Origin: Carbonactinospora thermoautotrophica
GTDB lineage: Bacteria > Actinomycetota > Actinomycetes > Streptomycetales > Carbonactinosporaceae
Length of the DNA: 64,000 nt
Assembly (NCBI RefSeq): GCF_001543895.1
Contig: NZ_JYIJ01000019.1
Coordinates: forward strand, 1,116,001 to 1,180,000
Direction: 5' to 3'
Part shown: positions 6,341-58,214 of the stretch, piece after piece
Numbering within the stretch: the stretch's first letter is position 1
How the letters are laid out: each line of letters opens with the position of its first letter
The notes under the pieces: generated by a model
The model's database searches: none
Seen by the model: only the letters and a program-made list of their open reading frames with translations
Told to the model about the DNA's origin: nothing
Translations under genes and position numbers: made by a program

Positions 6341-7228
6341 AAGGCTGTCACGTAACTGGTCTTCTGGGTTGCGTGCGATGCTGGCCGGCGCCTGCTCCGA
6401 TCAACCAGTGAGGGCGAGGTTGTGCAGGAAGGCGATGCCGGCGGCGGTGTCGCGCAGGGTATGGGCCTTGCGCCGGTAATCGCGCAGGATCTTCCAACAC
6501 TTCATCCTCGCCAGGGTGTGCTCGATCCGAGCCCGGACGCTGCGATGGACCGCGTTGAGCTCCTCCTGCCACTCCGGCAGGGGCGTGCCGTCCCGGGGCC
6601 TACGGTAGGGGATGATCACGCCCGGGTTGCCCTGATAGCCCCCGTCGGCCATGACAGGCCTGCCAGCCAGGACCTGGTCAATGCCGGACTCGCGGTAGGC
6701 CCGGCAGTCGTTGCGGTTGCCCGGCTGGGGGTCCCCGACGGCGACGACCAGGCGGGTGTCGGCGTCGATCGCGACCTGGAGGTTGGTCGAGTACCGGTAG
6801 TTCTTGCTGCGCTCCGCCAGACGGCGATCCCGGGTGGGCACCAGGGTGCCGTCCACGATGCACACCTGATCGACGCTGCGGCGCCGGGCCGGGGCCAGGG
6901 CCAGCAGCGGCCCCACCGTCTCCACGACCCGGTGCGCCGCGGCATGGGAGATCCCGAACAGCGGGCCGACCTGCCGCAACGTCAGGTTCGTGCGCCAGTA
7001 CACCGCGACCAGCAACACCCGATCCGCCAGACACAATCGCCACGGCCGGCAGGCGCGACCGTCGGCGATCCTGTCCCCGCCCCGCTCGGCCACGGTACGC
7101 ACCAGCTTGCGGAACTGCCGGGGTGTCAACCCGGTGAACGGAGTGATCCACCCCGCCTGAGCAGCAGAGATCACCTGACCCATACCCCGACCAACGGCCG
7201 ACACCGCCCCGAGTTACGAGACAACCTT
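6341..7228 (-). mobile_element. IS5-type insertion sequence, copy A
   Basis: An 888-bp element with terminal inverted repeats AAGGCTGTCACGTAACT (left end) and AAGGTTGTCTCGTAACT (right end, read inward), flanked by TA on both sides (6339-6340 and 7229-7230), read here as the target duplication. It carries one transposase gene on the minus strand. It is the inverted twin of the copy at 7964-8851, with an identical transposase translation. Its left end truncates the cargo gene at 6056 and its right end truncates the restriction-modification gene. Confidence 0.9.
6401..7204 (-). CDS. IS5-family transposase (DDE_Tnp_4 type), copy A
   Basis: A 267-aa transposase. An N-terminal helix-turn-helix region (LTLRQVGPLFGISHAAAHRVVE) precedes an RNase H-like DDE core: first Asp in VDGTLVPT, second in VMADGGYQG, and Glu in RARIEHTLARMKCWK. 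The length and motif order are those of single-ORF IS5-group enzymes. It is intact and identical to copy B at the protein level, implying recent duplication. The start is taken as GTG 7204; an internal ATG seven codons later is also possible. Confidence 0.93.
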   Translation of the reverse strand: MSAVGRGMGQVISAAQAGWITPFTGLTPRQFRKLVRTVAERGGDRIADGRACRPWRLCLADRVLLVAVYWRTNLTLRQVGPLFGISHAAAHRVVETVGPLLALAPARRRSVDQVCIVDGTLVPTRDRRLAERSKNYRYSTNLQVAIDADTRLVVAVGDPQPGNRNDCRAYRESGIDQVLAGRPVMADGGYQGNPGVIIPYRRPRDGTPLPEWQEELNAVHRSVRARIEHTLARMKCWKILRDYRRKAHTLRDTAAGIAFLHNLALTG

Positions 7229-9565: not shown

Positions 9566-10083
9566 CGCTCCGCCTCCGGGCCGAGCGCGGGGATGTCGGC
9601 GTACACGAACTTCCCACCCGGGCGCTTCGGGAGATGCCCCCACCGGGCGCACAGGGCGTCGACTAGGAGCAGGCCGCGCCCCTCGGGGTCCTGGTCGGTG
9701 GCCCACGCCAACACCGGACCCTGCGGGTTGTAGTCGTCCACCTCCACCCGGAAGGTCTCCCCGCGCCAGCGCGCCACCACCAGCAGCGGGCGGCCGTCCG
9801 GCTTCCCATGCTTGAGCGCGTTGCCGAACAACTCGGTGGCGACCAGGCTCACCGCTTCCACCGGGAACCGGTCGAGTAGCCCCCAGCGGGTCAGGCAGTC
9901 CTCCACATACGCCCGCACCCGGCGCACCTGCTCCGGCTCCGGCGGGAACCACACCCGGCGCAGGAACCCACCCGCTCCACGCCGGTCACGGGGCCGCCAC
10001 CCCCGACCCGCCACCCGCCTGGCACGGATACCGAGACGGTGAACCAGCCGAGCTATAGACACGCGCCCGACACGAGACGACAC
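9562..10083 (-). CDS. ATP-binding protein, HATPase_c_2 family (RsbW-like)
   Basis: A 173-aa GHKL ATPase. After a basic N-terminal tail of about 40 residues, the domain shows VSLVATELFGNALKHG (N-box) and EGRGLLLVDALCARWG (G-box). These single-domain kinases act on sigma-factor regulators. It is translationally coupled to the recombinase-like ORF downstream and divergent from the XRE regulator at 10282. The first ATG at 10083 may be too early, because the residues before about 45 are Arg-rich and variable. Confidence 0.8.
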   Translation of the reverse strand: MSSRVGRVSIARLVHRLGIRARRVAGRGWRPRDRRGAGGFLRRVWFPPEPEQVRRVRAYVEDCLTRWGLLDRFPVEAVSLVATELFGNALKHGKPDGRPLLVVARWRGETFRVEVDDYNPQGPVLAWATDQDPEGRGLLLVDALCARWGHLPKRPGGKFVYADIPALGPEAER

Positions 10084-10189
10084 GCTTCACGCCACGACCC
10101 CCGCACGACTCGCACCGGGGGTCTTCCACTACCCGCCCAGGAGCCATGGCCCGAGCATCTGAGGCGCCCGGATATACGAACAGTCACGG

Positions 10190-10201
10190 TGTGTATACAC
10201 A
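10190..10201. promoter_or_regulatory. TGTGTATACACA palindrome in a divergent promoter
   Basis: A perfect 12-bp palindrome about 80 bp upstream of the XRE regulator start and about 110 bp from the divergent HATPase start, in an AT-richer stretch (GGATATACGAACAG nearby). It is a plausible autoregulatory operator for the XRE protein; binding is inferred. Confidence 0.45.
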
Positions 10202-10281
10202 TGCGGTATAAGCTCGATAAGTCCGGCTGTCGGTGGTGAGACCTCATTTAGGATCGCGACTGAGCGGGGGAGGCGCCGCCT

Positions 10282-11658
10282 GTGAGTGATCCACGTCAGC
10301 AGTCGATCGGGTTACCCGACAGTTTCTGGCAGCGTGAGGAAGCGCAGCAGCCGCTGCGTGAACGCGACGTCGCCGCGATCTTCCGGCTGGTGCAGAAGTA
10401 CACCGGGGCCAGCCAGACCAAGATCGGGATGGCTGTGGGGATGCCTCAGCCCCATGTCAGCACGATCATGGCGGGCAAGCGCCAGGTGCGCGACGTCGCG
10501 GTGTTCGAGCGGATCGCCGAGGGGTTGGGCATTCCCCGCCACCTTCTCGGGCTGGCACCGGAGCCCGGGAAATCGGGTCCCTTCCCCGACGTGACTGGCG
10601 AGGATCCCATGAAGCGCCGAGAATTCCTCGGAGTCGCCGGCATCGCCGTGACCGGTCTGGCCGAACCGGGCACCTGCTCTGACGCCACCGACCAGGTGCG
10701 CGCGATCGGTGACATCCTCCTGCCGTACGGCACCGCGGACCACGCGGAGGGAGAGCCGGAGGTCCCCAGCCTGGCGCGGCTCCAAGCCCTGGTGTCGGCA
10801 GCCAGGCAGGCGTACGCGGCGTGCCGGTACTCGGCCGTGATGAAGGAGCTTCCAGGACTGTTGTCCGTCGTCCGGCATGCCCGCAACGCGTTCGACGGCG
10901 ACGAGGCGTTGACCGCGCTGAGCCTCGCGGCGGACACCTACCACGTGGCGGCCAGCACAATGCTCAAACTGGGGCACAAGGACCTGGCGTGGATCGCCGC
11001 TGATCGCAGCATGCAGGCCGCCTCAGCCAGCCAGGACCCGCTGACAGTCGGGTCGAGCATGCGGATCCTGACCCATGTCTTCCTCGCCAGCGGCTACCAC
11101 GACCGCGCGAAGGAAACCGCGAGCCGGGCAGCCGTCGAGCTGAGCCGGCAGTTCTCCAAACCCTCGCCTGATGAGCTGTCCGTTTACGGTGCGCTCCTGC
11201 TACGGGGAGCCATCGCCGCCGCCCGGGGCGAAGACCGGGCCGGCGCCCTCGAACTGCTGGATGAAGCCGAACGCGCGGCCCGGCATTTAGGGAAGGGCTT
11301 CAACCACCACCAGACCGCGTTCGGCCTCACCAACGTGCTCGTCCACCGCGCGCATATCGCGGTCACCCTGGGCGACGCCGGCACCGCCCTACAGCACGCG
11401 CGCCGAGTCGACCTGACCACGATGCCGGTGCGGGAACGGCAGGCCAGCCTGTGGCTGGACGTCGCCCGCGCCTACGCCCAGTGGGGCAAGTACCCGCAAG
11501 CCCTCACCGCGGTACTCAAAGCCGAACAGTTGGCTCCTGAGGAGATACACGCCCGCCCGGCGGTGCGCAGACTGGTCGAGGAACTGAACCAGCACAGCCG
11601 CACGGCTGGGCTATCCGAGGTAGGAGGACTGGCCAGGCGCGTGGGTGGGGACCTGTGA
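10282..11658 (+). CDS. XRE-family HTH regulator with TPR-like C-terminus
   Basis: A 458-aa regulator. The helix-turn-helix is at about residues 35-90 (ASQTKIGMAVGMPQPHVSTIMAG). After it comes MKRREFLGVAGIAV, a Tat-signal-like remnant typical of this Streptomyces family, then helical repeats to the end. It starts at GTG 10282 behind GGGGGAGGC. Its stop overlaps the start of the flavoprotein gene, so it heads a small operon (regulator, flavoprotein, NUDIX fragment). This kind of regulator is abundant in actinomycetes, and its signal is unknown. Confidence 0.85.
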   Translation: MSDPRQQSIGLPDSFWQREEAQQPLRERDVAAIFRLVQKYTGASQTKIGMAVGMPQPHVSTIMAGKRQVRDVAVFERIAEGLGIPRHLLGLAPEPGKSGPFPDVTGEDPMKRREFLGVAGIAVTGLAEPGTCSDATDQVRAIGDILLPYGTADHAEGEPEVPSLARLQALVSAARQAYAACRYSAVMKELPGLLSVVRHARNAFDGDEALTALSLAADTYHVAASTMLKLGHKDLAWIAADRSMQAASASQDPLTVGSSMRILTHVFLASGYHDRAKETASRAAVELSRQFSKPSPDELSVYGALLLRGAIAAARGEDRAGALELLDEAERAARHLGKGFNHHQTAFGLTNVLVHRAHIAVTLGDAGTALQHARRVDLTTMPVRERQASLWLDVARAYAQWGKYPQALTAVLKAEQLAPEEIHARPAVRRLVEELNQHSRTAGLSEVGGLARRVGGDL

Positions 11659-53060: not shown

Positions 53061-54248
<1,188 letters not shown>

Positions 54249-55019: not shown

Positions 55020-55272
55020 ACCACGCCCCCGGCCGCCCCGACCCCACCGCCGCCCCCGGGGTGGGGACGGCCCTCACTCGGCCCGGCCGGTACACCGTCC
55101 CCCGATGTGCCCCGCCGGCCGGGCCCCGGCCGCCCGGCGCCCATGCCCGCGCCTCCCGGGCGCCGGGCGGCCACTCGACGGCTGACGCCGTCTCCCCTGG
55201 ACTCGTGACTCTTACTACCTGAAAGATCTGTTTGTCAGATTTTTAAGCAATCGGAAAGTGAAGGTACGCCTG

Positions 55273-55695
55273 GTGCGGTTACCCGCGTTAGCGCTGGCCA
55301 GCGTGCTCGCCGTGGTCGCGGCGGAAGCTCAAGGATGCGACGGGTCGAGCGGCGCAGCCGGCCCGAGGTGTGTCACCAAGCACGAAGGCAGGCGGGCTGC
55401 GGTGGTCCTCAGCTACGAGCCCCCGGCCGAGGCGGGACCGAAGCCCAAGCCGAGGAAGACACGGGTCAAGCCGGAATGCACGAAGCAGAACGCGCGCTTC
55501 TGGAAGAGCTTGCGGCCGTGGCGGGGTAAGTACAAGACCGACGGCAAGCGCGTCTACTACTGGGACTACACGCACAATGACATCGAGGTCTTCGACCGGA
55601 AGACCAGGCAGCATCTGGGCAGTGCGCACCCGGATACCGGCGAGATGATCAAGGGACCGGCGAAGGGCAGGGAGCTGCCCAAGAATCTTGGCTGA
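55273..55695 (+). CDS. secreted toxin with colicin E3-type 16S rRNase domain
   Basis: A 140-aa protein. GTG 55273 is preferred over GTG 55258: in the partial duplicate at 57711 the earlier GTG is GCG while the later one and its GGAAAG-x-GAAGG site are kept. A hydrophobic signal (LPALALASVLAVVAAEAQ) precedes a basic linker. The C-terminal 60 residues match the colicin E3 cytotoxic domain: VYYWDYTHNDIEVF (Asp, His and Glu of the E3 W-D-x-x-H-x-x-x-E site), RKTRQHLGSAHPDTG and IKGPAKGRELPKN. Predicted to cut 16S rRNA at the decoding site. The immunity candidate follows 12 bp later. Confidence 0.82.
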   Translation: MRLPALALASVLAVVAAEAQGCDGSSGAAGPRCVTKHEGRRAAVVLSYEPPAEAGPKPKPRKTRVKPECTKQNARFWKSLRPWRGKYKTDGKRVYYWDYTHNDIEVFDRKTRQHLGSAHPDTGEMIKGPAKGRELPKNLG

Positions 55696-55707
55696 AGGGG
55701 TCAGCAG

Positions 55708-56082
55708 GTGACGGAGGAGTACGCACAGGGCGACGAGCACTGCGGCGAGTGCGAGGTACTGGCGGTGCCGCCCGGCACGTTCGAGGTTGAGACCACCGCC
55801 GAAGATCAGTGCTGCGAACTGATGCTGCAGAACCTGCGCGCTGATGATCTTCCCGTCGTCTACGACGCCACGATACGCGAGTGGGGGATCAGATACCTCG
55901 ACGGCGGCAGCTCGATCCAACGACTGGAGTACTGCCCCTGGTGCGGCAAGAAGCTGCCTGGTGACCTGTGGGACGAGTGGCGTACCCGCGTCGAACAGCT
56001 CGGGCTCGACCCCTGGGACGACGCCGACAGGATCCCCGAGGCGTTCCGCAGCGACCGCTGGTGGAAGGAAGCCGGGCTGTAG
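55708..56082 (+). CDS. DUF6980-like protein, putative immunity to the E3-like toxin
   Basis: A 124-aa acidic protein starting at GTG 55708 behind AAGGGG. Cys pairs CGECE and QCCELM near the N-terminus and YCPWCGKKLPGDLWDEW near residue 80, then GLDPWDDADRIPEAFRSDRW and WKEAGL, fit the DUF6980-type family. Its place directly after the toxin and its acidity against a basic rRNase domain suggest that it is the immunity protein. It is duplicated, with a frameshift, at 57865. It is unlike the known Im3 fold, so the role is an inference. Confidence 0.65.
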   Translation: MTEEYAQGDEHCGECEVLAVPPGTFEVETTAEDQCCELMLQNLRADDLPVVYDATIREWGIRYLDGGSSIQRLEYCPWCGKKLPGDLWDEWRTRVEQLGLDPWDDADRIPEAFRSDRWWKEAGL

Positions 56083-56328: not shown

Positions 56329-57498
56329 TCAGGCGAGGTGTTCGCCGAGGTCGGTGACGGCGGGCAGGGTCGGCCAGGTCGCGGCCAGCCGGGCGTGCAG
56401 GCGCTGGAGCTGGACGCGCAGGCGGATCGCGCGGGTCTGGCGGGCGATGTCGGCGGCTTCGGCCGCGACGGCGCACGCCTGCTCCGGCTCCCCGGCCTGC
56501 TCGTGCGCGACGGCGAGCTGGTACAGGTACCACGCGGCCCACTCGGCGCGGCGAAGCTCTTCAGGGAGCCCGGCCAGGCCGGTCGTGAGCAGTTCGACCG
56601 CCTGGGCGTGTCGGCCGAGGTAGCGGTAGGCGAGCCCGCGCTGCATGGTCAGGAAGTCCGGGGAGTAGAAGTAGATCCAGGCCGGCTCGTCCTCGGGGTG
56701 CTCGGCGGCGCGGGCGGCCAGGGCCTGCGCCTCGTCCAGCTTCCGTTCGGTCGCGTCCCCGTCGCCGGCCAGGGCATGCCCCCGAGCCTCCTGCTGGGCG
56801 GCGAGCGCCCGCACCCCGGGGCTCACCCGCCGTGCCGGGCGCTGCGCGGCCTGGGACAGGCCGATCATCGGCCCGACCCGGCCGGTCATCCACGCCAGGT
56901 GGCCTTTCATGCTCCACGCGGTGGCCACCATGTCGGCGTTGTCCGCTTCGGCGGCCCACTCGGCGGCTCGGTCGTACCAGGTGCGCGCGGTCGAGCGGGT
57001 GCCGGTGTTGGCGTGCAGCCAGCCGCAGAACTGCGCCCACTGGGCGGCCACGTCCAGCACCTTGGCCCGGATCGGGCCGCGCGCGTCGAGCACCAGGTCC
57101 TCGATCACGGCGAGGTGGGTGGTGATGGGCTCGACCAGGGGTACTGAGCCGATGGCGTCTTCCAAGCGGCGCTGCGCGGCGAGCGTGGCCGCCAGCGCGT
57201 CGATCACGGCGGTGTCCACCCGGCGCGGTTGCTGGACGGCCTTGCGGAGGCGTTCTTCCGCGTCAGGGTCCAACGGCGTGCCGGGGAGCCGTTCCTTCGC
57301 CACGGCCAAGGCCGCGAGCGCGTCGTCCGCCCCGAGGGCCGCATCCAGTGCCGTGGCCAGCTCCACGCTCGGCGGCTTGCGCCCGTTGGCCACCTTCGAC
57401 AGGTACCCCACGTCGTAGTGGACCCGCTTGGCCAGCCCGCGCAGGGACACGCCCTGCTCGGCCATGAGCCGGCGCATCTCGTCGCCGAACATCGTCAT
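56329..57498 (-). CDS. XRE-family HTH regulator, module copy 2
   Basis: A 389-aa paralogue of the regulator at 53061 with nearly the same HTH (RRLMAEQGVSLRGLAKRVHY and DVGYLSKVANGRKPPS) and TPR-like region (VLDVAAQWAQFCGWLHANTG, QTRAIRLRVQLQRLHARLAA). ATG 57498 begins at the conserved MTMFGDEM. Similarity continues to the last residues (PTLPAVTDLGEHLA). It is divergent from the deleted toxin and frameshifted immunity copy. The gap 56083-56328 downstream of the first immunity gene has no gene that I can support. Confidence 0.85.
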   Translation of the reverse strand: MTMFGDEMRRLMAEQGVSLRGLAKRVHYDVGYLSKVANGRKPPSVELATALDAALGADDALAALAVAKERLPGTPLDPDAEERLRKAVQQPRRVDTAVIDALAATLAAQRRLEDAIGSVPLVEPITTHLAVIEDLVLDARGPIRAKVLDVAAQWAQFCGWLHANTGTRSTARTWYDRAAEWAAEADNADMVATAWSMKGHLAWMTGRVGPMIGLSQAAQRPARRVSPGVRALAAQQEARGHALAGDGDATERKLDEAQALAARAAEHPEDEPAWIYFYSPDFLTMQRGLAYRYLGRHAQAVELLTTGLAGLPEELRRAEWAAWYLYQLAVAHEQAGEPEQACAVAAEAADIARQTRAIRLRVQLQRLHARLAATWPTLPAVTDLGEHLA

Positions 57499-57710: not shown

Positions 57711-57851
57711 GAAGGTATGCCTGGTGCGGTTACCCGCGTTAGCGCTGGCCAGCGTGCTCGTCGTGGTCGCGGCGGAAGCTCAAGCGCCCACCCGGACACC
57801 GGGAAGATGATCAAGGGACCGGTACCTGGCAGGAAGTTGCCCAAGAGATGA
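57711..57851 (+). pseudogene. deleted duplicate of the E3-like toxin gene
   Basis: The upstream region and signal-peptide part (LPALALASVLVVVAAEAQ) match the toxin gene at 55273 almost base for base. The sequence then jumps within about one codon to the toxin's last 22 residues (AHPDTGKMIKGPVPGRKLPK) in another frame. About 290 bp are lost, including the W-D-x-x-H-x-x-x-E catalytic stretch. Therefore no toxin is made. Confidence 0.85.
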
Positions 57852-57864
57852 AGGGCTAGATGCG

Positions 57865-58214
57865 GTGACAGAGCACGAACAGGACGAAGACATCTGCTGC
57901 GGCGCGGCACGCAGCTACGCGGTTGCCACCGATCCCGCCGACCACTGCTGCGAGACCATGGCGCGGTTCGTCCAAGCCGACGACCTCCCCATGTATTACG
58001 ACTGCGTCGCCCGCACCTGGGGGATCGCCTACCCCGGAGACCACTCCATCCAGACGATCTACTACTGCCCGTGGTGTGGCCAGAAGCTCCGGAGTTGGGT
58101 GACGAGTGGGTCGCGCGGCTCGAAGCCATGGGGATCGATCCAGGGGACGACGACGCCGACAGGATCCCCGAGGCGTTCCGCAGCGACCGCTGGTGGAAGG
58201 AAGCCGGGCTGTAG
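57865..58214 (+). pseudogene. second DUF6980-like immunity copy, frameshifted
   Basis: It starts at GTG 57865 and keeps CCETMARFVQADDLPMYYDC, WGIAYPGDHSIQTIYYCPWC and GQKL, then shifts frame at about 58091 where one C is missing. The other frame restores GDEWVARLEAMGIDPGDDDA and RIPEAFRSDRWWKEAGL to the stop at 58212-58214. The last 60 bases are nearly identical to copy 1. It is an orphan immunity copy in decay, or one base of sequence error. Confidence 0.75.

Follow-up and report, generated by a model that had tools for sequence, protein, structure and literature searches.

Does the gene pair at 55273-56082 of the window, the 64,000-nucleotide stretch of Carbonactinospora thermoautotrophica DNA analysed here, encode a secreted ribonuclease together with the protein that shields its producer? 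Ribonucleases of the colicin E3 type cleave 16S rRNA at A1493/G1494. An earlier note on this DNA had proposed that the first gene encodes a small exported enzyme of this type and that the second is a new kind of immunity partner. The features that bear on the question are the following.

53061 to 54248, minus strand: NsdA-family HTH-TPR regulator, upstream of the toxin gene and divergent from it (NF053720, E 1.8e-47; enriched near toxin loci)
55273 to 55695, plus strand: putative toxin gene, 140 aa, with signal peptide, K/P-rich linker and E3-type RNase domain (open reading frame; PF09000; colicin E3 in the PDB by sequence and fold)
55273 to 55330, plus strand: predicted export signal, MRLPALALASVLAVVAA followed by EAQ (read from the sequence; kept in ten paralogues)
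55492 to 55677, plus strand: E3-type cytotoxic domain with the Asp-His-Glu and Arg of the E3 active site (HMM match, alignments)
55708 to 56082, plus strand: DUF6980 protein, 124 aa, candidate immunity protein with a CC...CPWCG pattern (PF22400)
56329 to 57498, minus strand: another NsdA-family HTH-TPR regulator, separating the intact pair from the decayed one (NF053720, E 1.7e-58)
57715 to 57851, plus strand: second toxin gene, a remnant with its signal-peptide end fused to SAHPDTGKMIKGP and its catalytic core deleted (BLASTN)
57865 to 58214, plus strand: second DUF6980 gene, frameshifted, partner of the remnant (profile matches, BLASTN)

Concerning the first gene, the 140-residue product matched PF09000 (Cytotoxic) with 32.3 bits against a cutoff of 22 (E 1.3e-7), and colicin E3 was its sole significant match in the PDB, by sequence (best E 1.2e-7) as well as by fold. 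The motifs YYWDYTHNDIE, QHLGS, PDTG and IKGP align with YEWDSQHGELE, QHLGS, PKTG and LKGP of colicin E3. Alignment to PDB 1e44_B indicated that the Asp/His/Glu triad is kept and that the C-terminal Arg of E3 pairs with Arg. An AlphaFold2 model built on a shallow alignment of 7 reached a pLDDT of about 96 over the last 70 residues, and when the isolated domain model was searched with Foldseek, colicin E3 took the top five places (E 3e-4 to 1e-3, probability 1.00, TM 0.46-0.49 by target), the next best other match having an E of 0.5. Profile, sequence, fold and catalytic residues support the assignment of the domain as E3-type; the motifs and active-site residues that the earlier note had picked out from the letters are thus confirmed, with the Arg as an addition. 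The triad is also retained in the paralogues described below, apart from one (L019:4852-5274) that carries Gly at the position of the catalytic Glu (THNDLGVF) and is possibly an inactive or altered toxin.

The second gene starts 12 bases past the toxin stop codon, and its 124-residue product matched DUF6980 (PF22400) with 70.3 bits against a cutoff of 27 (E 1.7e-19). In an alignment of 60 relatives, C76-P-W-C79-G is invariant and C35-C36 nearly so. The protein had no Pfam match to Im3 or cloacin immunity proteins, and its model (pLDDT 86) matched no PDB fold, that of Im3 included, at E <= 0.001. The neighbour is therefore the DUF6980-like Cys protein that had been predicted, and is unlike Im3, as had also been predicted. 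Searches of NCBIfam, PHROGs and PADLOC returned nothing useful for either protein, and we did not find DUF6980 named in the literature.

The pair is not unique in its genome. The 5.13-Mb sequence contains 10 PF09000 and 8 DUF6980 matches, and the intact secreted E3-type genes number ten, that of the 140-residue toxin among them. Five (group A: the window, L019, L021, L022 and L023) are followed directly by a DUF6980 gene, which together with two broken loci occupies the immunity slot behind E3-type ends. The other five (group B: L024:4544-5349, 6392-7212 and 10077-10888; L025:4769-5586; L026:4925-5739) are followed by an unrelated Trp-rich protein of 132-135 aa (WPFTDFNGYR), whose start sits within the toxin stop (ATGGTGA). 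This protein, for which no Pfam, plasmid or order-level relatives were found, is a candidate for a further immunity family. A partner thus lies directly downstream in all ten cases, with stop/start overlaps in several; this is the arrangement, a toxin domain followed immediately by a gene in the immunity position, by which polymorphic toxins are recognized. The two groups have similar signals and linkers, E3-type ends being the only kind observed in them. Median dN/dS among toxin and partner paralogues ranged from 0.24 to 0.35, with about 0.35 for each of the two genes of the present pair: both genes evolve under purifying selection and are thus selected as proteins. Toxin and partner distances gave a mirror-tree r of 0.84 over ten pairs, a value confounded by relatedness, and no significant correlation within the genome (r 0.28, p 0.28). 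No PrfH release factor, which would point to the E3-repair pathway, scored above cutoff in the genome, and repair is therefore not an obvious means of self-protection.

We then consider DUF6980 beyond this genome. Searching about 85,000 genomes with a DUF6980 alignment yielded 112 relatives. Among the 80 loci listed, at least six, from Pseudomonadota, Thermodesulfobacteriota and Bacillota, have an E3-type end directly upstream of DUF6980: Acidovorax (L071), Panacagrimonas (L072; an Rhs protein, with a 4-base overlap), Paracidovorax (L075; the toxin broken), Roseateles (L077; a 4-base overlap), Desulfovibrio (L103; a CdiA-like protein with DUF637 and PT-VENN) and Alkalibaculum (L142; Rhs with HINT). 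Since Pfam places Rhs, Rhs with HINT, or DUF637 with PT-VENN before the E3 domain in the longer of these toxins, DUF6980 stands where Rhs and CdiA-like systems carry their immunity gene. On the family's tree, at least four state changes on well supported branches are needed to account for the link to E3. Most DUF6980 genes do not adjoin toxins. The family occurred in 39 of 394 genomes in an order-level survey, where the loci read beyond this genome showed a single copy flanked by ordinary genes, and the Streptomyces copies are mostly conserved orphans, which implies that DUF6980 has or had another role; it is not solely an immunity family. The statement that DUF6980 genes generally are not near toxins, which the earlier note had set against its own proposal, applies to these orphans but not to the family as a whole, the basis beyond this genome being the six loci in three other phyla among the 80 listed. 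Two relatives are from phages, one of Shewanella and one of Microcystis, with no neighbouring toxin (L151:2998-3303 and L152:2737-3246).

PF09000 itself was found in 9 of the 394 order-level genomes; several of the domains terminate long proteins, and the partners are different, either DUF7683 or a 'DIDxYxDEW' protein. Besides this genome, a phylum sample added three with PF09000, in none of which DUF6980 lay near the domain; the remaining E3-type genes read in order and phylum relatives likewise had partners other than DUF6980. In L057-L060, Streptomyces-type toxin ends precede DUF7683 (PF24731, as tested for L058), a protein that may be an Im3-like antidote. In L062, L064 and L164, leaderless E3-type genes of 76-87 aa precede the 'DIDxYxDEW' protein, itself followed by a peptidase-like gene (HELGH/HELAH) in L062 and L064; this arrangement is possibly another E3-based system.

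One alternative is that the toxin acts as proposed but DUF6980 protects the ribosome or handles the damage instead of binding the toxin. The family would then consist of zinc proteins with a general association with ribosomes or RNA, and would have been recruited next to E3 toxins to block or repair their target site. Its wide and often orphan distribution, its strong conservation in Streptomyces and its presence in phages are consistent with such a role, as is its occurrence directly behind a CdiA-like Fil_haemagg_2 protein with a non-E3 C-terminus in a Rickettsia endosymbiont (L145:563-4303). Nevertheless, the DUF6980 model gave no significant match to a ribosomal or RNA-binding fold, and the family has diversified in close translational proximity to one toxin, in the five intact pairs and at the foreign loci, as cognate immunity proteins do. 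We consider this explanation unlikely.

It could also be supposed that the toxin genes are remnants of polymorphic toxins, stripped of their delivery domains and without any present role between cells, in an arsenal that is decaying. Two group A toxins are indeed broken. One (L021:12850-13274) carries a frameshift, and the other is the remnant at 57715-57851, which belongs to a decayed pair (57715-58214) 2 kb downstream of the intact one. The remnant matched the intact gene by BLASTN with 97% identity over 74 bp and 81% over 64 bp, while its DUF6980 partner gave profile matches in two frames and a BLASTN match of 78% over 207 bp. The Glu to Gly copy and the lack of a delivery domain point in the same direction. 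However, the dN/dS values of toxins and partners argue against general decay, as do the ten intact pairs, five in each group, whose signals are conserved, and we regard this explanation as quite improbable. Decay has moreover been one-sided. Three intact partners lack an intact toxin (L020, L021:12564-12860 and L025:5961-6374), whereas no intact toxin lacks its partner. That partners outlast broken toxins, and never the reverse, is the asymmetry predicted by an immunity function.

The N-terminus of the toxin bears on a further alternative, an intracellular toxin-antitoxin module in which DUF6980 is the antitoxin and the hydrophobic segment is not an export signal. The open reading frame begins with GTG at 55273 (an alternative GTG lies upstream at 55258); residues 3-17 form the most hydrophobic 15-residue segment of the protein, and three Cys lie between this segment and the C-terminal domain region. 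The signal is probably cleaved by signal peptidase I at V-A-A or A-E-A. Lipoprotein export was considered and dropped because Q-G-C is a poor lipobox, no lipobox of good quality being present in the signal. The short gene, the overlapping or closely spaced partner and the multiple decaying copies would all suit a toxin-antitoxin module. On the other hand, ten of ten paralogues, in both groups, keep the features of a classical signal, namely a hydrophobic stretch and V-A-A-type cleavage sites, followed by a Cys, and in relatives the same domain forms the C-terminus of exported Rhs and CdiA-like proteins, which makes an intracellular module very unlikely. That DUF6980 and E3 domains adjoin by chance or hitchhiking, as the location of most DUF6980 genes elsewhere might suggest, is hardly credible when five intact adjacent same-strand pairs are observed in this genome against about 0.005 expected and the pairing recurs, with 4-base overlaps, in three other phyla.

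Regulator genes are also frequent near the loci. An NsdA-family HTH-TPR gene lies within 2 kb at 7 of 11 toxin loci, compared with about 4% of the genome, an enrichment with p about 4e-7 after the C17 cluster was collapsed. At three loci the gene order is divergent regulator, HATPase gene, toxin and DUF6980. Further NsdA-family genes were seen by toxin loci at C19:1195960, C13:180239 and C19:77385 (G000), often with an HATPase gene between. It is possible that NsdA-family regulators control the toxin loci.

Compared with colicin E3 and Im3, the system shares the RNase domain, its fold and catalytic residues, and an immunity-position gene directly downstream. It differs in that the toxin is chromosomal, present in ten copies, apparently exported by a signal peptide, and devoid of the receptor-binding and translocation domains that characterize colicin-type bacteriocins (a Pfam search of the 140 residues returned PF09000 only), and in that the partner is DUF6980. 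The small size, simple export signal and missing receptor domain given in the earlier note are all borne out. Contact-dependent inhibition (CDI) systems such as CdiA-CT/CdiI of Enterobacter cloacae (ECL), an E3-like 16S rRNase with its cognate immunity protein (PMC9086364), provide a precedent for E3-type toxins outside colicins, although these belong to large contact-dependent CdiA proteins of Gram-negative bacteria whereas the toxin here is small and of the signal-peptide type. We did not find DUF6980 described as a CdiI in the literature; the Desulfovibrio locus places it in the CdiI slot. The Tox-ColE3 polymorphic toxins (Zhang et al. 2012, PMC3482391) likewise carry the E3 domain as the toxin end, include Actinobacteria and have an adjacent immunity gene, but the sole partners given for them are Imm-Cloacin and Imm45, as opposed to DUF6980 and a second family of its own kind here. 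Finally, a SAR2788 family putative toxin (NF038340), 252 aa and exported, has the same E3-type end in its member from plasmid pNY3A; it is longer, with a Bacillota-like N-terminal domain, and the next gene encodes an unrelated 197-aa protein. That region (L148; CP079755.1, Klebsiella grimontii) looks Bacillota-like for a Klebsiella plasmid and may reflect an assembly mix-up. A scan of genome contigs with the toxin alignment found no short secreted relative elsewhere, and at that sensitivity the format looks confined to this lineage.

Taking these results together, we consider it likely that the pair comprises a secreted antibacterial E3-type toxin and a DUF6980 immunity protein. The 140-residue toxin would be exported by the general secretion route, lose its signal peptide and act in competing, probably related, cells by cutting the decoding centre of 16S rRNA. 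DUF6980, for its part, would remain in the cytoplasm of the producer, where it would bind the E3-type domain and so shield the cell, probably by means of a small fold stabilised by a cluster of metal-binding cysteines. The ten intact toxins, which fall into two groups whose partner families are unrelated to each other, would represent an arsenal expanded by duplication. The recurrent immunity-slot position, in this genome and in three other phyla, supports the proposal of a new kind of partner, and DUF6980 very probably adds a new family of immunity proteins to those of an old toxin domain. We lean, by a modest balance, towards the full combination: DUF6980 as a phylum-crossing E3-neutralising family with a fold unlike any solved immunity protein, and a lineage with ten small freely secreted toxins, two unrelated immunity families and a link to NsdA-type developmental regulators.

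What is new here is DUF6980 as a partner family, the bare secreted format and the presence of two partner families in one genome. The format prompts a question: by what route could an RNase this small, secreted and devoid of a receptor domain, enter another bacterium? The results suggest a function for a Pfam family of unknown function found across many phyla, and likely a new way of blocking a well-studied ribosome toxin, for which the ten toxin-antidote pairs of one genome would offer a natural set for tests of specificity.
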